64,000 nucleotides of DNA. It comes from Macrocystis pyrifera (taxonomy: Eukaryota; Sar; Phaeophyceae; Laminariales; Laminariaceae). The notes beneath the pieces are model-generated. The model had not been told where the DNA came from. It worked only from the letters and a program-made list of their open reading frames with translations, and did no database searches. A program made the position numbers and the translations under genes. Position 1 is the stretch's first letter. The number at the start of each line of letters is the position of its first letter. The DNA lies in the NCBI GenBank assembly GCA_031763025.1, contig JASSKH010000005.1, forward strand, positions 16,334,128 to 16,398,127, read 5' to 3'. Below, in pieces: positions 1,484-62,162 of this stretch.

Positions 1484-36978
<35,495 letters not shown>

Positions 36979-41300: not shown

Positions 41301-41388
41301 TTTCTGGTTGTTTCTTTTTTAGGTTGGAATTCCCTATAGGTTTACCTAGGGTATCTAGAAACAAAATTAAAAACTTGCAGTAACGGAC
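36979..41388. other. Intergenic region, G-rich, no recognisable gene
   Basis: Downstream of the helicase stop. Several poly-G runs occur (38066-38093, 38333-38370, 38574-38598), with GGGAGG-rich stretches between. The long open frames here are proline- or glycine-rich by-products of base composition and resemble no family. From 39.1 to 41.4 kb the composition becomes normal, but I see no domain, RNA gene or transposon end. Confidence 0.6.
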
Positions 41389-41477
41389 AAAATGACAAAA
41401 ACGCTACACCAGTGACTTTTTGTCAGTTTACGGTACAAAAAATTCAAGGCTTATCACGCTAATTTCGGTGGAACGGT

Positions 41478-41795
41478 AAAACCGCCGTCAAAATGGTCCC
41501 GCCGTCCCGTCCCGCCGACAAAATCCCTGACCGTCGTCGCTTAACCGTCCCGTCCCGCCTATAAAATTTCTCCCGTTGGAAATTACCGTCCCGTCCCGCC
41601 GTGACACAGAAAATTACCGTCCCGTCCCGCCGTGGAACCGAAAAATTACCGTCCCGTCCCGCCATGACACCGACAAATTACCGTCCCGTCCCGCCGTGGC
41701 GCCGAAAAAATACCGTCCCGTCCCGCCGATAAAATCTCTCCCGTAGAAAATTATCGTTCCGTCCCGTCGTGGCACCGCCGCCGGCGGACATAACT
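41478..41795. repeat. Left subterminal array of ACCGTCCCGTCCCGCC
   Basis: About eight spaced copies of ACCGTCCCGTCCCGCC separated by short AT-rich spacers. Subterminal repeat arrays bind transposase in hAT elements; that role is inferred here. They point in the same direction as the right-hand array. Confidence 0.85.
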
Positions 41796-41902
41796 TTCCT
41801 CTTCCCGTACAAGAAACATTCATGGTGGTCTGTTCCCATCCATTTCCACCACGAATTACGAAAATAATCAAGAAATTTCGAGTTGTACCAAACTTCAATA
41901 GT

Positions 41903-41925
41903 AATTCCTATATAAATACATGTGT
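41903..41925 (+). promoter_or_regulatory. TATA-like element at the start of the USP-like gene, duplicated at 43942-43964
   Basis: CTATATAAATAC directly precedes the ATG at 41920. The same 23 bp, exact, recurs at 43942-43964 about 2.04 kb downstream and again ends in ATGTGT. Confidence 0.55.
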
Positions 41926-42195
41926 CGACCGGCCACGACAAGTCCTCCGGCTAGTTACACATCCCACACCAACGACGGACAAACAGACACCGGCTCCATC
42001 CGCCCTTCACCTTTTCTGCCGCCCAATGAGAACAATTGCTTCTTCAACACCGCCACCGCCTCCGCCATAGCTGCCTGGGAAGGACATCCTCTCCCCAACC
42101 CAACCATGGCAACACCAGCTGGAGCCATCTTCTCCACTCTTGCGGCTGTGCGTGCCTGCATGTTCGACGGCAAGCCTCTCCAACGCCCCCTCTTG
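41920..42195 (+). CDS. USP-like (C19-type) cysteine protease, exon 1 with Cys box
   Basis: Open from ATG to the donor GTAAGT at 42196, phase 0, 92 codons. Residues NENNCFFNTATASAIAAWEG around codons 37-56 match the Cys box of ubiquitin-specific proteases (N-x-C-[FY]-x-N); the Cys would be the nucleophile. It ends PLQRPLL. Proteases of this fold remove ubiquitin or ubiquitin-like tags; the substrate is unknown here. Alternatively it may be a degenerate host gene fragment picked up by the transposon. Confidence 0.6.
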
Positions 42196-42368
42196 GTAAG
42201 TTCTTGCTTGTTCTGCTATCCACATCTCGTCGTAATAATACCCCCCAATACTTACCGGCGCCCGCAAGTACCCATATATAAATTAATACTACGTTGTGCT
42301 TTCATGTGTCTTCTAAACGTATTGTATCATTTCGTTCGGTATGCGTCGCATTCTTTGGCGGAATGCAG

Positions 42369-43330
42369 GATTCTTTGGCTCAAGCACGTGACAAGATCCT
42401 TGGTAGTAGCGGCCTACCGGGCGCAGGATCCGTAATGGGAACGCCAGGCTCCATATACGAAGCGATCACCCTTCGACCTGATGATCAACTCCACCCCAAC
42501 AGCTGGTGGCCAGGTGACGTCGTGGAACGGCATGCTCGTATCATGTACACTCGGACGGCTCTCGGATTCAACTGGCACTACACTACCGATTGCCATATCG
42601 AAGACCATGGCCATATCGAGATAATCGCATCCCAATGTGCACGATGGCGAGATCCCGCACCAGTCTTGATTCCGCACGGACCGCCCCAGTCACTCCATGA
42701 TGCAGTCAATGCCTTGTTCCTAACCGGAGCCGCCTCCGACTTCCCATTTTCTGGACCTGCTCCGTGCCCCCCCTGCGACGAGAGCTGCGCCCGGCACGTC
42801 GGCACATCCACATGGTCGATTCTTCCTTGGAGTGCGGACAACGCCCCAGATCGCGTTTTCTTCGCGTCTTCGCGTCTGCACGTGTAGACATCTACGAGGA
42901 CGCCGGAGAGCCGCCAGCACCGTCACCCATTTTGATGATAGGCGTTGAGTACTGCCTCGTAGCTGTCATCTACTCCCTTCCGAACCATTTCGTGACCCAG
43001 TTGCGTTCCAGAGGGCGGTGGTTGAAGTACGATTGCATACTCGGGGGGAGTACCACGTCTTGCGACGATTTCGACTATGACTGGTATCATGGTTTCCAGC
43101 ATATGTATGTCTACCTTCGAAAGTCTATGACCTTGCCTGTTCCCCAGGCACAAACGACACCATACCGCAGTGCTAGCTACCATGAGCGCGCAAGCCAAGA
43201 ACGCGCGAAGATAATCGAGGCGACTAGACAAGGACCCATCATGCCTCCGCCTTACCGAAGTCCTGGCCACTACGACGTGGGGAGCGCAGCTGTGCCTTGC
43301 CGACTCGACTCCGACGTACCGCCGCCTTGA
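42369..43330 (+). pseudogene. USP-like (C19-type) cysteine protease, exon 2 with frameshift and His box
   Basis: Acceptor TGCAG at 42368, phase 0, consistent with exon 1. The first frame runs from DSLAQARDKILG to a stop at 42885-42887 and includes CPPCDESC, which could be part of the zinc finger found in many USPs. The second frame carries the His box: GVEYCLVAVIYSLPNHFVTQ, then GRWLKYDCILGG, matching Y.L..VI....HF....R..G.W..YD, and runs to TGA at 43330. An exact 8-bp tandem duplication (CTTCGCGT at 42860-42867 and 42868-42875) lies just where the two frames meet and accounts for the shift. The copy is probably inactive unless the duplication is polymorphic. Confidence 0.6.
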
Positions 43331-43501
43331 GCGTCTCCCGTGTTCTTCACACGTGTGTTGAAACGTTTTGATTTTTGATGTGATATTGCTTCTCGATTAG
43401 GACTGCCTGCCTTCTTGTTTCCCTCTTTTTGCTAGAACGAATTTTCTAGAAATGTTGCACGGCGCGTCCAGCCTTTCGAGTTCTGCGCGGCTACATTTAT
43501 A

Positions 43502-43598
43502 TTAACCCTTTTAGTACTGCAGTCCCGTTTTGGGGACAAATCACTTGGAATTAGAATGGTTTGTCCCCAAATCGGGACTGCGGTACTAAAGGGGTTAA
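43502..43598. mobile_element. piggyBac-like MITE with TTAA duplication (type copy), nested in the hAT-like element
   Basis: TTAA at 43502-43505 and 43595-43598 bracket an 89-bp palindromic element starting CCCTTTTAGTACTGCAGTCC and ending GTACTAAAGGGG. TTAA targets and CCC-starting ends are the hallmark of piggyBac transposons. No transposase is encoded. Confidence 0.9.
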
Positions 43599-44023
43599 CT
43601 GTTCGGTCGACAGAGTGTTGTTTACGGGGTGCATGTACGTGACGATCATCGGCGAAAAATCTACTTGTATGCCTTTTGTCATCTTTGACTTCACGGCAGC
43701 GTTTTATTTGGTGTGGGTGTGTTCGCGACACGTCGAGGTCATCGCAATCTGCGCGATGCTCGACTGTGGCGTTTTGTTTATGTGTTTGCTTCGAAATAGC
43801 GGCAACATCAGCATCTGCAAACAAGTAATATTCTACGTGGTAAATATATGACGTCGCGAGAGAATTGTCATACTGCCGGCCAACCTTTTGTTTTATGGTA
43901 AAACCCTAGGGAACAGCGGGGCAACCCTTGCCCTGCCCTACAATTCCTATATAAATACATGTGTTATCGTAAATTGTGCACAAGTCCCATCTATAAATGA
44001 AATACATATAGAATAGTAGTAGG

Positions 44024-44117
44024 TGTATTACCCAGCTTGCCAAATTGGGTATCAACTATTCAATTATTAATCAGTCGAACTCACAGATGACGTATTTTCA
44101 TCGTCTTGCTTATATAA
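44024..44117 (-). repeat. CAGCTGACGTATT module, copy near 44 kb
   Basis: GGTATCAACTATTCAATTAT, then GTCGAACTCACAGATGACGTA, followed by TTATATAA at 44110. Related copies lie at 51661-51747, 54162-54215, 58061-58110, 58281-58330, 60380-60435 (inverted) and 61671-61985 (split). Possibly a mobile short repeat or a promoter block. Confidence 0.65.
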
Positions 44118-44562
44118 CACCTGGTCAGTGGTTGGTATGATATTGCTGGGCACCACATTTACTTCTGCTAGAAAAAGTGCTGGTGGTGCTGATCAGCAGC
44201 TGGTTGATGATCTGTTTTTATATACTTTCAAATGAAGGTAAGTACAAATATTACCGAAAAAGAATGAAAATTACTACCAAGTAGTAAGTGTATACCTGGT
44301 GGTGTTGTTTTTTCTTTTCATATCTTCATTCTTCATTTCCACTCGCAACTGAAAGCAGAGTATCATATCACAACACCTGCCACAGGCTCGCCACCACACA
44401 CAAATAGCACACAGACCACGATCACACCAGTACTACTGGTGTGGCCCAAAAAGATTTTAGGAGACACGCCATCAAGCGGGACGCAAAACGTGCGCTGTCA
44501 AGGATGTAGGGTCGAGTGTTGCACATTGTCAATGTCAATGCCAAGTTGCTGTCTGTCAAGGG

Positions 44563-44945
44563 GTGAAAGTGCTGCCTTCTAACATCTTTGGTGTGACCGG
44601 CACGGACGCCATGGATGCCTATCTCACGGGCGAGGCCGATCGACCAGCAGCGGCACTAGAATCACCACCGCCGCCGCCACAACCTCCATCTGCACAACCA
44701 CCAGTAACACAGAGCAAGCACAACAATCAGAACAGCCACCGTGAGCTGGCAACGCAACAACAGCGCTTGGGGCAGGGGTGGAAGAAATCAGAAGACGTCG
44801 CCCGTGTAGTGGCAGCACTTCTCGGGGCTTGTGGGCTGCGCGGGTCGAGAAGAAAACGTCTGCGTCGGGACGGCTCCCTTCGCGGAACCAGCAGTGTGCG
44901 GGAATTTTTCAGGTACAACCGTGCTGACCCTGCGGCGGGAAATAA
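44563..44945 (+). other. Unidentified ORF part inside the hAT-like element
   Basis: The open frame has no ATG at its left edge. It encodes LPSNIFGVTGTDAMDAYLTG, a Pro/Gln-rich stretch, then GWKKSEDVARVVAALLGACG and a basic segment. It then runs into the CCGTCCC array, where it stays open only because of the repeat. The non-repetitive first 125 codons could be an exon of an unknown protein. I recognise no domain. Confidence 0.25.
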
Positions 44946-44959
44946 TCGAAAAATATATT

Positions 44960-45320
44960 TATCGTCCCGCCCGCCGAAGAAAAAGAAAATTACCGTCCCG
45001 TCCCGCCGTGGGAAAAATATTTACCGTCCCGTCCCGCCGAGGAAAAAAATATTTACCGTCCCGTCCCGCCGAGGAAAAAAATATTTACCGTCCCGTCCCG
45101 CCGAGGAAAAAAATATTTACCGTCCCGTCCCGCCGAGGGGAAAAATATTTACCGTCCCGTCCCGTCGAGAAATTCGGCACCCGCTGTCCCGTCCCGTCCC
45201 GTCCCGTCCCGTCCCGTCCCGTCCCGCCAACTTTTTATGTCCTCATTTTACCGTCCCGTTTTCATTTTTTTTTTCCCCGCCAAACGACTCAAATTTGTCC
45301 CGTCCCGTCCCGTCACGATT
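44960..45320. repeat. Right subterminal array, 31-34 bp tandem units
   Basis: Five or more units of TATTTACCGTCCCGTCCCGC plus GAGGAAAAAAA spacer, then a denser CCCGT run near 45185-45230. Open frames on the plus strand here are by-products of the repeat. Confidence 0.9.
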
Positions 45321-45343
45321 CTCAGTCACTGTGATAAGCCTTG

Positions 45344-45620
45344 AAAAAATTCAAACCAGGAAATCAGGGTACACCAAACCCAAGTTAGATGACGTTTTCT
45401 GTCAAAGTATCCTGTTTCATGGCAAAACATCCATGTCCGTCCGTCCAAGTTTCAAAAATGACAAAAAAAAAAAAACGATGCTCCAGTGTCTTTTTGCCAG
45501 TTTACCGTACGAAAGAATAGAACGAGGTAATAAAGGCACACCAAACCCAAGTTAGGTGACGTTGTTTGTCAAGGAACACCTTTTTCTGGTAATAAAGCAA
45601 TGTCGGGTGTAGCTTATGAT
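45344..45620. repeat. 167-bp tandem repeat, target of the hAT-like insertion
   Basis: ACACCAAACCCAAGTTAGAT at 45371 recurs as ACACCAAACCCAAGTTAGGT at 45538. The part preceding it (ATGACAAAAA...CTTTTTG(T/C)CAGTTTACxGTAC) occurs at 41393 left of the transposon and at 45455 right of it, showing that the transposon split one unit. Confidence 0.8.
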
Positions 45621-46390
45621 TACGAGCAAAAAACGCGTTCATGAATATTAGCACCCTCTTGTACTGGTATTTATACGAACATACCAGGTACGAGTCAAGC
45701 TTAGCTTACATTTGTGAAGAAATCTTGTTTCGTTTCGTGCGCGTGCTTGTACTCAGAGCACGGGACCGCGGGCGAACCCGGCGCCGTCGCGGGCGCTGGC
45801 GAATAGAGGGGGGGGTTGCAAGGAGCGCGGTTGCCGTTTTCGTGGCTAGGCGTCGCGCGTGCCCCGAGACATGAGGGAAGCACGAATGGTCTCTGTCTGG
45901 CCTCCTTGTGAGGCTCCACTTATACCATATGCGAGTCTAGAAGGGTCGTTTCGATGTGCAAAATAAAATTCAAGCGGTGCTTATTTTAGCGACCAGACTT
46001 TATAGTCGACAGAGAGAGCGACGCAACTTTGTTAAGCATACACTTTCTCACTCTGCGTTACATGCTAAATTTTCTTAAAAAGAAACACACGCAACATCAA
46101 GTAGTGATGTTATTGGGAACCAACACTTGAACCTAATGTACTTACATGAGTTCCAAGGATAGTCAAGTGTGCATAATGTACCTATCGCATGAGATCCAAC
46201 TTGAAGGAGTGAATTCAACACATACAAGGCAAGGAAATAACCGAACATATAGAATCGTTTTGTATCTACCGATACTGCAACACCTGCTTGTATGAGATGG
46301 GTGTGTACCTAAATTATGGTTGCTACAGGAGTACCTGGTAGCCCTGTGTTATGCAGCAGCGACCAGGTGATACTGGCTACTGCTGTAATA
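45621..46390. other. No gene recognised, spacer before the LINE
   Basis: Ordinary composition; short open frames only. ACCTGGTA-type motifs at 45682 and 46334. It may include the 5' untranslated part of the retrotransposon, whose left boundary I could not define. Confidence 0.5.
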
Positions 46391-46400
46391 ATGGGGGCAG

Positions 46401-47609
46401 GTGGAGCAGGGAGGCGCCGCTAGGAGTGCCACAGAAAGCCGCCACACCGAGGGGGGTAGGGATGCCGCGCTAGCGGGACATGTGGAGATCCCTCAGGCAA
46501 GGCCCAGTACCGCCTCTGCAACATTTGCGGCGGCAACGTCTCCTAGATCAGCTGGAAGCGCATTGCCCTCGCTCGAGGGCGGCCAAGGTGGAATGGGGGC
46601 AAACTTTAGAGGTTCCTGTCCAAGTGCTGCGCGGCCTCTGCCTCCGGCGGCAGAAACGACACCGCTGGGAGGAGAAGCTCTGGCGTCGGAGGGCGACTCG
46701 CGGATAAGGGGGCAGGTAGATCGGGGAAATGCTGCTGTAGTAGCCATGGAAAACCTTCAAACATCCAGAGACAGGGATGTCACGCCATCGGGACGCTTGA
46801 GGGTGCCCATGACACCATCCGGCGCCACCCCAACAACACCTGGAGATACTTCCTCTGAACCTGGTAGCGCAGCCAGGGAGGGGGGTGGCACAAGAGGCGG
46901 ACGGGGCCGACCGCGGGGGCCTGGGAGGGGGTCACGAGCGAGAAGCACTGGGAGAGGGGCCGTCACGAATCGGGAAAGAATCCCTCGACCCGGCGGCAGT
47001 GAGCCGCCCTCGGCCCCTGAACCGAGAGGAGGCAGCGAGTCGCCCTCGACTCCTGGATCGAGAGGGGGCAGCGAGCCTCGTTCGGATCCTGGATCGAGAG
47101 GGAGCGATGGTGAAGAGAGAGAACTCCCCAGGGAAGGAGAAGGTAGCGGGGGGGGAGGATCAGCATCGGGGAGCGCAGGGCGACTCCGTGCATTCATTGG
47201 CGCCAGTCAAGACGGCGTGATGTGCGGGGGATGCCGATCGGCAATCGCTCGGGGGCACCGAGTGGTAGGGCTGCCGTGTGGAAACCAGCACGTTATGCAC
47301 GCGCGGTGTGTGGTGGAAGCTATCCGAAGGAGTGGGTCACACGCACAACTCATTTGCGCTACACGAGGGTGCATGGCCCGCCATGGGAGACGGGAATCAC
47401 TTGAGGCAGCAGTTCAGGCTGATCCTGGACTCCGTGTTACGGTCGCAGGACTTGGAGGAAGGCAGGACAACAACTACGATGAACGGAGGGAAGAGCTTTG
47501 CTACCCGTGGGACCAGGATTCGTTAGGAATAGCAGGGCCACTAGATGATGTTCTCTTGAACAGCTCCAACAACGTTTCATCACCGTGGTTAAGGTACAGC
47601 CGGGGCTAG
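46401..47609 (+). CDS. LINE ORF1 part: low-complexity region and RING-H2-like finger
   Basis: The frame opens after a TAA at 46389 with no early ATG; the first in-frame ATG is at 46593. The central part is rich in Gly, Ser, Pro, Arg and Glu with a repeating PSAPEPRGGSESPSTPGSRG-like pattern. Near codons 274-320 a cysteine/histidine array reads C-x2-C-x14-C-x3-H-x2-H-x2-C-x15-C-x4-C, close to a RING-H2 finger. It might bind nucleic acid or act as a ubiquitin ligase; neither is shown. The frame ends at 47609, overlapping the next frame by 61 nt. R2-type elements normally have one ORF, so this may be the N-terminal part of a single frameshifted protein. Confidence 0.7.
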   Translation: MEQGGAARSATESRHTEGGRDAALAGHVEIPQARPSTASATFAAATSPRSAGSALPSLEGGQGGMGANFRGSCPSAARPLPPAAETTPLGGEALASEGDSRIRGQVDRGNAAVVAMENLQTSRDRDVTPSGRLRVPMTPSGATPTTPGDTSSEPGSAAREGGGTRGGRGRPRGPGRGSRARSTGRGAVTNRERIPRPGGSEPPSAPEPRGGSESPSTPGSRGGSEPRSDPGSRGSDGEERELPREGEGSGGGGSASGSAGRLRAFIGASQDGVMCGGCRSAIARGHRVVGLPCGNQHVMHARCVVEAIRRSGSHAQLICATRGCMARHGRRESLEAAVQADPGLRVTVAGLGGRQDNNYDERREELCYPWDQDSLGIAGPLDDVLLNSSNNVSSPWLRYSRG

Positions 47610-50600
47610 CTACTGTCCACGCCAAGCTTCTCACCCACGTGCTCGGTCTCCTGAACCACGCCCTTGGAGCGCATTGGCCAAACAGACACTCAGAGACGCC
47701 GAGGTCGCTCCTGAGGGCCATTAAGCTGTGGTACATCGTGCCAGCACTGCTACACTCGCAGGACAGCCGCGTGAAGCGACGCGAGAGATTCGCGTCCGTC
47801 GAACGTGGTGACATCACGCTTATTCTCCCGTGGTTGATGGAGTACACCAGCCGAGCATCGACACGGCTTAGGGGCCCAACCTACGAAGCCACATACGCGG
47901 CTAAGTACGAGAGAGCGTCGTCAGCCTGTCGCCACTCGGGCGGGGTGTCAGTAGCAGCACGCTGTCTTCTCGCGGAAGCGCGAGCGCCCGGCAACGAGGT
48001 GACATGGGAGCGGGTGAAAGCCAAATTTCCGGGGGAAGATCGTGCCTCCATCTCCGAGTCGGCAGCGGCCGCGGTGGCAGCAAGCTCCACGGAACCGGAG
48101 GAAGGAAGTGTTCCCAACTGGCGTCCAGAGCAAGAGTTCGATTCGCAGGTGGCCCTCGACGTCATCAACTCACGAAATGCGTTATCAGGCGCGGGGAGTG
48201 ACGGTCTACGCTTCTCACACCTGCAGTCGGTCATCAGGACCGGCTTCGGTCGCGAGAAGTTTGGAGCTAGCATCGAGGCCTTTTGGAGGCGGATCTTCGA
48301 CGACTCCGGTGCATTCCCGCCGGAATTCTGGAAGCTCTTCTTGCAGTCCAACCTCACTGCCTTGGGGGAAAAATGTCGCCCCGTATGTGTAGGTATGACA
48401 TGGAGACATCTTCTAGCAGCCGGGACTATGCGGCAGTGGCGGCCACGGCTGGAAGAGATTAATCGTGAGGCAAGACAGTTTGGGGTAGGGGTTCGAGGGG
48501 GGGTGGAGCAGGTAGCTCTACGCGCCCGGGTGCACCATGAGTCAAGAAACTGGCTCATCCCAACCGACTGTTCCAACACCTTCAATACTGTAAAGCGGAC
48601 GGCAGTACTTGCCGAGGCGGCCACTTGCGTGCCCGCGCTCACGCCGTTCATTGCTAAATGCTACGGCGAGAGGCCCGCCCCTACGTTCTTCCAGATGGAC
48701 TCGGGGGAGCGGCGTAAAATTGACTGCTCCAGTGGAGTGCAGCAAGGGGATGCCATGGGCCCGGCGCTGTTCTGCATGCCACTGCTGCCAATACTCAAAC
48801 GGGTCCGTGAGGAGTTTGAACACCGGGGTGTTGAAGCCTTTGCTTACCTCGATGACATCAGCATCGGTATATCAGAGATTACAACGGACACGGTGAGAGT
48901 AGTGCCCTTTCTCCAGCACGAGCTGTGCGAAATAGGCGTTGCAATTAACCCCAGCAAGACGGTTGCTTTGCCTCCAAAAGGGCATGTGCCTACGTCGGAA
49001 GAGATAGCACTTCTGGGGGGCATAGGTGTCCGCATTGCGGAAGGGGGTGGGGTAAAGGTGGTTGGCGTGCCCATAGGCACTGATGCATTCGCGGTGAACA
49101 GCGCCGTCGAGATAGTCCGAGATGGGGGAGCAGAGCAACTCGCGCGCATCCTGCCGCGTATGCCGGACAAACAGTCGGCGAACCTCATCGCCACCAGTTC
49201 AATGGTGAAGCGGACCTCCTACATTGAGCGGGTAATGGACCCGGAGCTGTCACTACCCGCGTGTCAGCGGGCAGACAATAGCGCAATATGGATGCTCGAG
49301 CGCCTTCTCGAGCTTCCAGGGATAGCGGACGAATCGCCGTTCTTTGCGGACGGATGCCCGGCGAACCGGTTGACGCTACAGCCCCACCAGAAAGCGCAGG
49401 CGAGCCTCTCCACAGGGGCCGGGGGGTTTGGACTGTCATCGGCTGAATCAAGGAGAATGTCAGCGTCCATCGGGAGCTTAGTGGCGACGGTGCCAGAGGT
49501 CCTTGCCGACCTCTCCGGTCCATTGGGGGGAAAAGTCCGAAGGGAGTTGCCCAATTCGGACCTCGTTCGCCGCATATGGAGTAGCGTCAGGGACCTCCGT
49601 GACATCCATGGGGTATCGGAGGAGGCAATGGCGAACGTGGTCCCGGAAAGCTGGCGGAACAGGGCGTTTCGCGCGAACGAGGGAGGAGTCTCAGAGCAGT
49701 CTGATATGGAGGCATTGCCATCACATGAAGCCCAAACGATCAGCTCCCACAAAGCGCAGCACAAGCTGGGGCAGCAGGTAAACCGGGTACGGTACCAACG
49801 GTACGTTGCGTCTCTGGACCAGCTCCCCGAGGCAGCAGGCCCGTCGAGTCGGAACGACGTGTCCGGGGGAATCGAAACCAGAGATCTTGCCAAGGCTCGG
49901 CAACGGAGCCTATCGGGACCAGGCGCTGTCGCCTGTTTGAGGGCAAGGCCTGTGGACACGGCACGAATCATACCGGCTTCGGAGTTCGTGTCTATGGGAC
50001 GGCGCTTTCTGGGAATGGAGGAGCCCATAGCGACGAGGTGCCCCTGCTGCGAAGCGACGGATGTCACCACGCGTCACGCGCGCACATGCCACCGAGCAGG
50101 CGCGCAGGTAAACCAGCATCAGCCGCTAGTCCACGCGCTGTCCCGCACGTTCAAGCGGTTGTCCATCCGCCATCAAACGGAAAGCGGAGCGCCCTTCAAC
50201 GCCGACAGAAACCTCCGCATGGATATAGTGATCGAGAGGGGAGGCCTCCGAGACGCTACGTCGTCAGAGTACCGTAACAAGGCGATACTCCTCGACATCA
50301 CGCACGCAGACCCCCAAGCGAGAGTCCACATGCGAGCTGGCAGCGCTGATCGAGACGGATCAGCTGCCTCCACTTCCGAGGCGCGAAAGCGCAACCACTA
50401 CGCTCGTGCAGGACAAGTGTCCTTCGACGAGCGCAGCCATAAACTTGTCACCCTCGCGGTGGAAAGTTTTGGACGCCTCGGGAAGAAAGGCAGCGATTTC
50501 ATTGACCAGCTGGCAACGAGCATCATCGGAGGAACGGACGGGGGATCTCTAGCAAGAAAAGGGGTTTGTAAGGAGCATCTTTTCCAGATCATATCGGTGA

Positions 50601-50725
50601 CCACCAGGTCGCGATCTCGCGCCGGGTGCACCGATATAAGCTCGCCCTGCGAGACCGCCAGGCCGCCAGGGGGAGAAGAGAGGAGGAGGGAGGACTACTC
50701 CCAATGGCGTGGGGATGGAATGTAG
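47549..50725 (+). CDS. LINE reverse transcriptase with CCHC finger and restriction-like endonuclease
   Basis: Open from just after TGA at 47546 to a stop ending at 50725, without an ATG near the start. Motifs: SGAGSDGLRFSHLQS; motif A LIPTDCSNTFNTVKR (catalytic Asp); motif B SSGVQQGDAMGPALF; motif C FAYLDDI, with YLDD at about 48845, carrying the two other catalytic Asp; motif D GVAINPSKT; motif E-like KVVGVPIG. From about 50040 a CPCC...H...C finger (C-x2-C-x8-H-x3-C) is followed by the endonuclease segment LRMDIVIERGG ... KAILLDITHADP, fitting the PD-(D/E)xK-like core. The protein replicates the element by target-primed reverse transcription. All key residues are present and there are no internal stops, so the copy is fairly young. 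Confidence 0.9.
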   Translation, partial: CSLEQLQQRFITVVKVQPGLATVHAKLLTHVLGLLNHALGAHWPNRHSETPRSLLRAIKLWYIVPALLHSQDSRVKRRERFASVERGDITLILPWLMEYTSRASTRLRGPTYEATYAAKYERASSACRHSGGVSVAARCLLAEARAPGNEVTWERVKAKFPGEDRASISESAAAAVAASSTEPEEGSVPNWRPEQEFDSQVALDVINSRNALSGAGSDGLRFSHLQSVIRTGFGREKFGASIEAFWRRIFDDSGAFPPEFWKLFLQSNLTALGEKCRPVCVGMTWRHLLAAGTMRQWRPRLEEINREARQFGVGVRGGVEQVALRARVHHESRNWLIPTDCSNTFNTVKRTAVLAEAATCVPALTPFIAKCYGERPAPTFFQMDSGERRKIDCSSGVQQGDAMGPALFCMPLLPILKRVREEFEHRGVEAFAYLDDISIGISEITTDTVRVVPFLQHELCEIGVAINPSKTVALPPKGHVPTSEEIALLGGIGVRIAEGGGVKVVGVPIGTDAFAVNSAVEIVRDGGAEQLARILPRMPDKQSANLIATSSMVKRTSYIERVMDPELSLPACQRADNSAIWMLERLLELPGIADESPFFADGCPANRLTLQPHQKAQASLSTGAGGFGLSSAESRRMSASIGSLVATVPEVLADLSGPLGGKVRRELPNSDLVRRIWSSVRDLRDIHGVSEEAMANVVPESWRNRAFRANEGGVSEQSDMEALPSHEAQTISSHKAQHKLGQQVNRVRYQRYVASLDQLPEAAGPSSRNDVSGGIETRDLAKARQRSLSGPGAVACLRARPVDTARIIPASEFVSMGRRFLGMEEPIATRCPCCEATDVTTRHARTCHRAGAQVNQHQPLVHALSRTFKRLSIRHQTESGAPFNADRNLRMDIVIERGGLRDATSSEYRNKAILLDITHADPQARVHMRAGSADRDGSAASTSEARKRNHYARAGQVSFDERSHKLVTLAVESFGRLGKKGSDFIDQLATSIIGGTDGGSLARKGVCKEHLFQIISVTTRSRSRAGCTDISSPCETARPPGGEERRREDYSQWRGDGM

Positions 50726-51660: not shown

Positions 51661-51747
51661 CGAGACGTATTACGCAGCTTGCAAAGTTGAGTATCAACTA
51701 TTTAATCAGTCGAACTCACAGCTGACGTATTTCAAAAGTTATAAATA
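51661..51747 (-). repeat. CAGCTGACGTATT module, complete copy
   Basis: CGAGACGTATTACGCAGCTT, GTTGAGTATCAACTATTTAA and CGAACTCACAGCTGACGTAT, followed by TATAAATA at 51740. This is the reference copy for the family. Confidence 0.7.
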
Positions 51748-52090: not shown

Positions 52091-52717
52091 TCAGCGTATA
52101 CTGTATGAGCATGCCTGGTATCTCCTGCTATCACTTTTCCTTAAAACCCACCCAAGGAACAATAAATAGCGGCAACAGCAGCATCGTAATGGTGAATATT
52201 ATGTACGTCGCGAGAGAATTTCCATCCCTCCGTCCAAGCTTGTATTAATTGGAAACAGCAGGGCCACCCTTGGACCTGCTCTACAATTTTTGATTGGGGG
52301 AAAACCCTTGGTCGACATTGATTAGTCGTCACCCGGAACCAACCGTGATATGTGCTGCTGCTGCATGGTTTGATATACATGGTATTCACACAGTCATGAG
52401 TGCGTGCAAATGCTTTGTACTTTTTTTTTGAGTGCACAAGAGCTTTGTACTGTTTGTACGAAGGCACAAGCAACCGTCTTTAAATCGTGAGGTAAGCTCC
52501 GTGCATTGGTTGCATCTCCTCGGACCGTCTTTGATTACCTCCGGTTTTGTGGAGACGACTTGAAGCAGCAAATATCAGCTACTACTTTAGCTGCAGTTCC
52601 CACGTCGCTGGGAATATCTCGTGGAGGAATGTTCCAACAATCGTGTCGCGTAACAACCATACATACATACCTAGATTCGTACTTGGCAAGGAATGCAGTT
52701 TTCTGCCGTGATTAACT

Positions 52718-61946: not shown

Positions 61947-62061
61947 TACTCAACTTTGAGAGGTGCGTAATACGCCTCGTCTATGCCCCATTTCTTTCTG
62001 AATTTACAAGTTGTGTGATAAGCCGTTCGGGCCTACCAGGTATTCTATATGTAATTCCATG

Positions 62062-62162
62062 TTAACCCTTTTAGTACCGCAGTCCCGTTTTGGGGGCAAA
62101 TTACTTAGAATTAGTGTGGTTTGTCCCCGAAACGAGACGGCAGTTTGCCGTAAAAGAGTTAA
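62062..62162. mobile_element. piggyBac-like MITE with TTAA duplication
   Basis: TTAA on both sides of a 93-bp element starting CCCTTTTAGTACCGCAGTCC and ending CCGTAAAAGAG. Confidence 0.88.

Follow-up and report, generated by a model that had tools for sequence, protein, structure and literature searches.

A ubiquitin-specific-protease-like segment inside a hAT-like-ended transposon of Macrocystis pyrifera probably belongs to a nested, 5'-truncated Helitron2-type element

We analyzed a 64-kb window (64,000 nucleotides) of the brown alga Macrocystis pyrifera (contig JASSKH010000005.1, positions 16,334,128 to 16,398,127; C219:16334128-16398127 in a genome of 537 Mb and 223 contigs), in which a transposable element with hAT-like terminal inverted repeats (TIRs) encloses a segment resembling a ubiquitin-specific protease (USP). 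The protease segment lies in a nested insertion that has its own copy family, its own ends and its own flanking duplication; in relatives of this insertion the protease adjoins a helicase, and the ratio of nonsynonymous to synonymous substitution rates (dN/dS) is low. We consider it highly likely that the locus has a three-layer history, in which the protease domain was that of a Helitron and entered the TIR element by accident. All positions below are those of the window, and the strand is given where one was assigned.

The nested insertion is bounded by a perfect 23-bp direct repeat, AATTCCTATATAAATACATGTGT, with copies at 41903-41925 and 43942-43964, interpreted as its target duplication. 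This repeat flanks 41926-43941, an insert of about 2 kb that contains the whole "gene", and the Helitron2-type copy itself extends from 41926 to 43944 on the plus strand. Because the last AAT of the Helitron 3' end coincides with the first three bases of the right repeat, the duplication measures 20-23 bp. Searched for with up to four substitutions, the 23-bp sequence is single in 15 of 18 sampled relatives of the TIR element, was not found in the other three, and is double in the window. Among the matches listed, at least nine TIR relatives match the window element to the left and to the right of the insert, but none of them within it. Once joined, the flanks of the insert match relative L050 at 94.6% over 443 columns and L044 at 95.1% over 453 columns, with no gap near the junction; the alignment with L040 (93.6%) contains single-base gaps at a distance of 24 bases from the junction. 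The pattern of the 23-bp repeat and the gap-free joined flanks therefore indicate that the protease segment arrived as a separate insertion. A chance origin of the repeat was rejected, given that it is perfect and single in 15/18 relatives; so was insertion of the type seen for long interspersed nuclear elements (LINEs), since a poly-A tract was not seen and the intron is retained. The insert starts inside a coding exon and retains the exact 3' end of its family.

The outer, non-autonomous TIR element occupies 41445-45343 (3,899 bp including the nested insert, or approximately 1.86 kb once the insert is subtracted). Its 13-bp inverted repeats are perfect (CAAGGCTTATCAC, 41445-41457, plus strand, and GTGATAAGCCTTG, 45331-45343, minus strand) and lie within an 8-bp target duplication, AAAAAATT, at 41437-41444 and 45344-45351. 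Subterminal tandem repeats are present on the left (32-bp units, 41580-41728) and on the right (32-bp and 5-bp units, 44948-45226). When the flanks are joined over a single AAAAAATT, the alignment to the neighboring unit runs through the junction, as expected of an empty site, and an undisturbed locus elsewhere in the genome, L004, is a second one; thus, the ends, the duplication and the empty site reported in the initial annotation were all borne out. The TIR element sits in an older Helitron2-type copy, because the 5' end of Helitron2-type copies with both ends is also found at 41329; the 5' end of this outer copy (41329-41444, plus strand) is the target of the TIR element, and the copy continues as 5' non-coding repeats at 45344-45999 (plus strand).

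The exact 13-bp end occurs twice inside the window and 721 times genome-wide, versus 2 matches for a reversed-pattern control. From these sites we sampled 18 plus/minus pairs, taken from the first listed sites rather than from all, with longer pairs chosen deliberately. Perfect 8-bp duplications surround 14/18 pairs, in addition to the window element, and in the remaining four, 7, 6, 4 and 3 of the 8 positions match; two of the 14 have an identical duplication sequence and are on one contig. Other copies with the same ends, as predicted, thus exist. Eleven of the 18 copies are 1.9-2.1 kb long, and the others 2.6-10.5 kb. We found neither protease nor helicase in any of the 18 (tblastn with ten relatives, P0001-P0010, E 1e-5), and the suggestion that copies with these ends might always carry the protease therefore fails. 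The further suggestion, that some might carry a hAT transposase, found no support either: none was recognized by eye in open reading frames (ORFs) of seven longer copies, with Pfam run on four ORFs. The copies of 7.9-10.5 kb were considered as autonomous partners and rejected, their extra DNA consisting, by eye, of retroelement-like or short ORFs with no recognized transposase. In this DNA, L033 has a 1,530-aa gag-pol-like ORF, L036 has LINE-like ORFs and L031 has repeated short ORFs. LINE-like ORFs were also noted in L037, another TIR-family copy, and L033, L036 and L037 all seem, by eye, to contain nested retroelements.

The hAT dimerization domain (PF05699) is common in the genome (150 scored matches). 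Eighteen of its matches, on ten contigs, are all at least 22 kb away from listed TIR ends. Four hAT loci were checked for the TIR end with up to two mismatches, and it was absent from each. Because no hAT transposase is linked to these ends, the name hAT denotes a likeness in ends and duplication length only, and the earlier label of hAT-like transposon holds to that extent. Like non-autonomous hAT elements, the family has short TIRs starting with CAAGG, an 8-bp duplication, subterminal repeats and hundreds of end matches; unlike them, it has no hAT transposase linked to its ends. It is possible, although we lean the other way, that the family belongs to another superfamily with 8-bp duplications, e.g., KDZ/Zisupton. 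The hAT target duplication follows the pattern nTnnnnAn, from which the duplications of this family deviate; on the other hand, CAAGG ends are a hAT pattern, and hAT dimerization domains are, as noted, common in the genome. Zisupton also generates 8-bp duplications (PMC12730594), and in the Ectocarpus genome KDZ covers 1.80%, versus 0.05% for hAT (PMC12477816). It should be noted that the nesting does not depend on the answer to this side question.

Two side observations concern the same family. At three sites on contig C189 of this genome (G000:C189 5202203-5202236, 5410106-5410139 and 5752370-5752403), right and left ends of the family face each other exactly 8 bp apart, as if one target duplication were common to two elements. 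An ORF at 44524-44934 (NIFGVTGTDAM..YLTG..RPAAALESPPP) is partly shared, with frame changes, by the TIR copies L035, L036, L040 and L041, and is perhaps a relic of the start of a lost transposase; a profile search with the ORF at 44563-45000 gave no family above the cut-off, with weak matches in a proline-rich stretch only.

The nested insert has an extensive family of its own. A genome search with P0002, a 678-aa protein of Laminaria digitata, gave at least 130 exon-level matches (65 of 1,261 candidates scored), and a DNA search gave 40 scored copies of 3,920 candidates, all at 95-100%. We compared 30 records, representing 28 distinct places, with the insert. The match starts exactly at 41926 in 25/30 records and within 4 bp of it in three, and two records, from one place, are divergent; nine of the 30 match the insert up to 43944/5, a single common 3' hairpin end, and most others stop at the end of the record. 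Helitron copies with both ends start with (T)ATTCCCTAGGTTTACCTAGGG and finish with CCCTAGGGAAC-N22-CTACAAT or close to it, and their 5' start sequence recurs inverted near the 3' end, with a hairpin just ahead of that end. In the window, the 3' asymmetric terminal inverted repeat, GGTAAAACCCTAGGGAA (43897-43913, plus strand), is the partner of the 5' end in copies with both ends, and is followed by the 3' terminal hairpin (43916-43936, plus strand). This arrangement, the repeat upstream of the 3' hairpin, was found in the window and in 11/33 relative records; the hairpin itself is moderately better than shuffled sequences (z -1.5 and -1.9; its stability was reached by 14 and 10 of 200 shuffles). 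The 5' terminal hairpin, a palindrome within the 5' asymmetric inverted repeat (L051:4402-4440), was matched in stability by 0/200 shuffles. The 5' terminal motif is present in 11/33 records (9 distinct places) and was not found, or lies beyond the record, in the other 22; the truncated window copy is without the 5' hairpin. The combination of 5' hairpin, asymmetric inverted repeats and 3' hairpin is characteristic of Helitron2 (PMC3627910), and the features described for Helentrons resemble these end structures closely (PMC4067079). Judged from these ends, the nested insert is a copy, truncated on its 5' side, of a Helitron2-type rolling-circle element.

Relatives of the insert pair the protease with a helicase. 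P0002 (Laminaria) and P0007 (Ectocarpus) contain a PIF1-like helicase with a complete protease domain after its end, and P0006 and P0008 contain the helicase with the Cys-box part of the protease. At the Macrocystis locus C141, the start of the helicase (PIF1, PF05970, 4.5e-12) comes first, then its remaining part and then the protease. A Helitron_like_N domain (PF14214, 2.8e-16), a family with 63 matches genome-wide, lies about 4.4 kb upstream of the helicase on the same strand. Because the insert is a Helitron2-type copy and its relatives pair protease with helicase, we assign the protease to the Helitron rather than to the element with hAT-like ends.

Three parts of the protease segment were recognized in the window copy, all on the plus strand: the end of the upstream exon (41926-42195), which contains the Cys box NNCFFNT; an intron with a GTAAGT donor (42196-42368; same donor in 24/29 relative records tested); and the last exon (42369-43330), which contains the His box LPNHFVTQ...GRWLKYD. 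The reading frame of the Cys box (exon end 42195) differs from that of the His box (about 42976-43032), the frame being broken near 42870; thus, the two USP-like boxes recognized in the initial annotation are present, but they do not form an intact two-exon gene. The frame changes at a tandem 8-bp repeat, whose exact 16 letters are absent from 32/32 relative records (some overlap; L003 excluded), and an ATG at 41920 falls in the flanking 23-bp repeat, outside the source sequence of the protease. Among relatives, 7/28 distinct places have an open last exon of 317 aa that includes an in-frame His box, four records being unscorable. Compared to the C141 copy, with synonymous sites near saturation, three protease pieces of the window gave dN/dS of 0.40, 0.22 and 0.18, and two of L051 gave 0.29 and 0.15; for the helicase, dN/dS was 0.08 and 0.26. 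The protease values of 0.15-0.40 point to past function.

The protease domain is probably USP-like. The Cys and His boxes are conserved among relatives, with the His box approximately 250 residues downstream of the Cys and followed by GRWxKYD. In a Foldseek search with the Ectocarpus model (mean predicted confidence, pLDDT, 33), the first 21 of the best 50 rows were USP or USPL1 entries (best E 2e-3, none at 1e-3), and in the viral library two viral ubiquitin hydrolases ranked third and fifth (E 0.05 and 0.08). Several results weigh against a USP identity. The low confidence of the structure model is one; the Laminaria P0002 model (also pLDDT 33) yielded no USP among the best 50 rows, and PDB sequence searches matched PIF1 for the helicase and never a USP. 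The profile check of Peptidase C19 proposed earlier gave little: the one Pfam peptidase family matched by P0007 was UCH, in the region of the His box (E 0.056, 13.5 bits, below the cut-off of 23.9, which no sequence reached), and neither the window pieces nor P0001-P0005 matched a peptidase family in Pfam. Other PDB matches were discarded, namely to a spider-toxin chain (E 1.1), to PIF1 helicases and a phage protein (no USP), to a designed repeat protein (E 5.5e-8 as the sum of weak repeats that were individually not significant) and to an FMN reductase (E 1.6). Protein relatives were not confirmed among viral contigs or genome contigs. An alternative that we regard as unlikely is that the domain is OTU-like, VTD-like or another papain-fold domain, as on other Helitrons. 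The OTU Cys box is DGNCLF, which the box NNCLFN of this family also resembles, and the Pfam scores for C19 stay below the cut-off; however, the leading Foldseek rows of the Ectocarpus model, the UCH match of P0007 and the spacing of the His box with the subsequent GRWxKYD all speak for a USP. OTU and VTD are carried by Helentrons (PMC9741609). The USP-like assignment, probable rather than proven, comes from motifs and from the Foldseek list of a low-confidence model.

The history that we favor comprises three layers: (i) an old Helitron2-type rolling-circle element, with its 5' end at 41329; (ii) a non-autonomous TIR element with hAT-like ends, presumably mobilized in trans by a hAT transposase, which entered the 5' repeat region of the old Helitron, leaving the 8-bp duplication; (iii) a second Helitron2-type copy, which entered the TIR element, its rolling-circle transfer presumably having begun at the intact 3' end and been cut short at 41926, so that the truncated copy would have been joined with a target duplication of 20-23 bp, i.e., by "one-ended" transposition. 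The protease would be a C-terminal USP-like domain accompanying the PIF1-type helicase of the Helitron, and probably its Rep as well, which reached the TIR element accidentally and is broken in the window copy. In the Helitron, it probably removes ubiquitin, its presumed substrate, from the transposition machinery or from a host repair factor.

Some observations run counter to this history. The common match start at 41926 is fixed by the truncation of the window copy itself. In L003, L004, L017, L019 and L028, the match ends before the Helitron 3' end despite further sequence; thus, not every Helitron copy has an intact 3' end. The Rep domain and the helicase were placed together at C141, one divergent relative, in which a segment with 270-bp direct repeats (92%) separates the two. 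Because of this repeat-flanked segment, a joint Rep-helicase-protease protein is an inference. Finally, a duplication was scored in one truncated Helitron copy, that of the window, and the T-rich tetranucleotide reported ahead of such duplications was not seen.

The 23-bp repeat might instead be a product of gap repair, the Helitron fragment having been copied in with template slippage during repair of the TIR element. The repair of excision gaps is known to introduce filler DNA, and the insert itself lacks TIRs and poly-A, but it stops exactly at the 3' end common to nine relatives, which is unexpected of random filler, and we consider this explanation improbable. It is very improbable that the hAT-like element captured the protease once as genuine cargo and then carried and spread it, even though the TIRs around it are intact, the duplication is perfect and the element could have moved again later: the protease is absent from the 18 other TIR pairs read (of 721 end matches), its frame is broken, and the insert forms a family of its own, with separate ends and a separate flanking duplication, so that the initial proposal of a cargo or life-cycle gene of the TIR element gives way to a nested insertion within 23-bp repeats with a Helitron2-type source.

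Several features lie in or near these elements. A palindromic insert with TTAA ends and 42-bp arms, similar to miniature inverted-repeat transposable elements (MITEs), interrupts the nested copy at 43502-43598; it was not seen at this point in the 39 other Helitron copies scored, in which no match spans its 88 bp. Related MITE-like palindromic repeats are found in the window at 5827-5923, 7062-7149, 16213-16302 and 62059-62144. A degraded piece resembling the inner part of the TIR element is at 51667-51732, and a degraded Helitron2 3' end at 52164-52288. Long ORFs (402 and 1,046 aa) at 46401-50725 look, by eye, like a retrotransposon without long terminal repeats, with a reverse-transcriptase-like YLDD stretch. 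Elsewhere in the genome, a young Helitron subfamily (L018, L020, L022, L023, L025, L027, L029 and L030) has a common 5' junction inside the helicase (L051:6090), which joins unrelated GTAGCTC-rich sequence.

The family of the nested insert resembles the one-ended elements CRe-1/2/3 of Chlamydomonas and the Helitron2 group (Bao and Jurka 2013, PMC3627910) in the 5' hairpin, asymmetric inverted repeats and 3' hairpin, and in 5'-truncated copies with intact 3' ends and variable flanking duplications. In Chlamydomonas, 5'-truncated Helitron2 relatives mostly have variable flanking duplications of 7-19 bp, sometimes much longer, and copies ending at the consensus 5' end are without duplications (PMC3627910). 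No duplication was seen by eye around L051, a Macrocystis Helitron copy with both ends. Unlike CRe (PMC3627910), the present element has a brown-algal host, a helicase-protease coding load instead of Fanzor, and a window insert without the T-rich tetranucleotide ahead of the duplication. OTU and VTD deubiquitinase domains occur on Helitrons (PMC9741609), and Helentrons or Helitrons with these domains (PMC9741609, PMC4067079) likewise combine Rep, a PIF1-type helicase and a cysteine deubiquitinase-like domain, whereas the domain of the window family looks USP-like (C19). Among other transposons, Ginger1 carries OTU/Ulp1 and a Trichomonas IS5-like transposase carries Peptidase C19 (PMC2836005); in both, a ubiquitin-type protease is fused to a transposition protein, once of C19 type, but these are cut-and-paste transposases, not rolling-circle Rep-helicases (PMC2836005). 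We found no report of a USP-type domain on a Helitron in titles and beginnings of abstracts, which is weak evidence of absence because only openly licensed papers were covered.

With relatives that lack the insert, the nested insertion is a clear example of a Helitron2 copy that is truncated at its 5' end and bears a target duplication. The protease, accidental in a hAT story, is reassigned to a rolling-circle transposon, in which it would be an inherited domain. Chances are about even that brown-algal Helitron2 elements carry a USP-type deubiquitinase at the end of the Rep-helicase, a third class after OTU and VTD, under purifying selection, and also make one-ended truncated insertions with long duplications. 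The new part would be the third deubiquitinase type on Helitrons; if this is true, Helitrons would repeatedly and independently need deubiquitination, whichever enzyme provides it. If the domain is a true USP, three unrelated deubiquitinase classes would have been recruited by Helitrons, and the role of ubiquitin in rolling-circle transposition would become testable across lineages.

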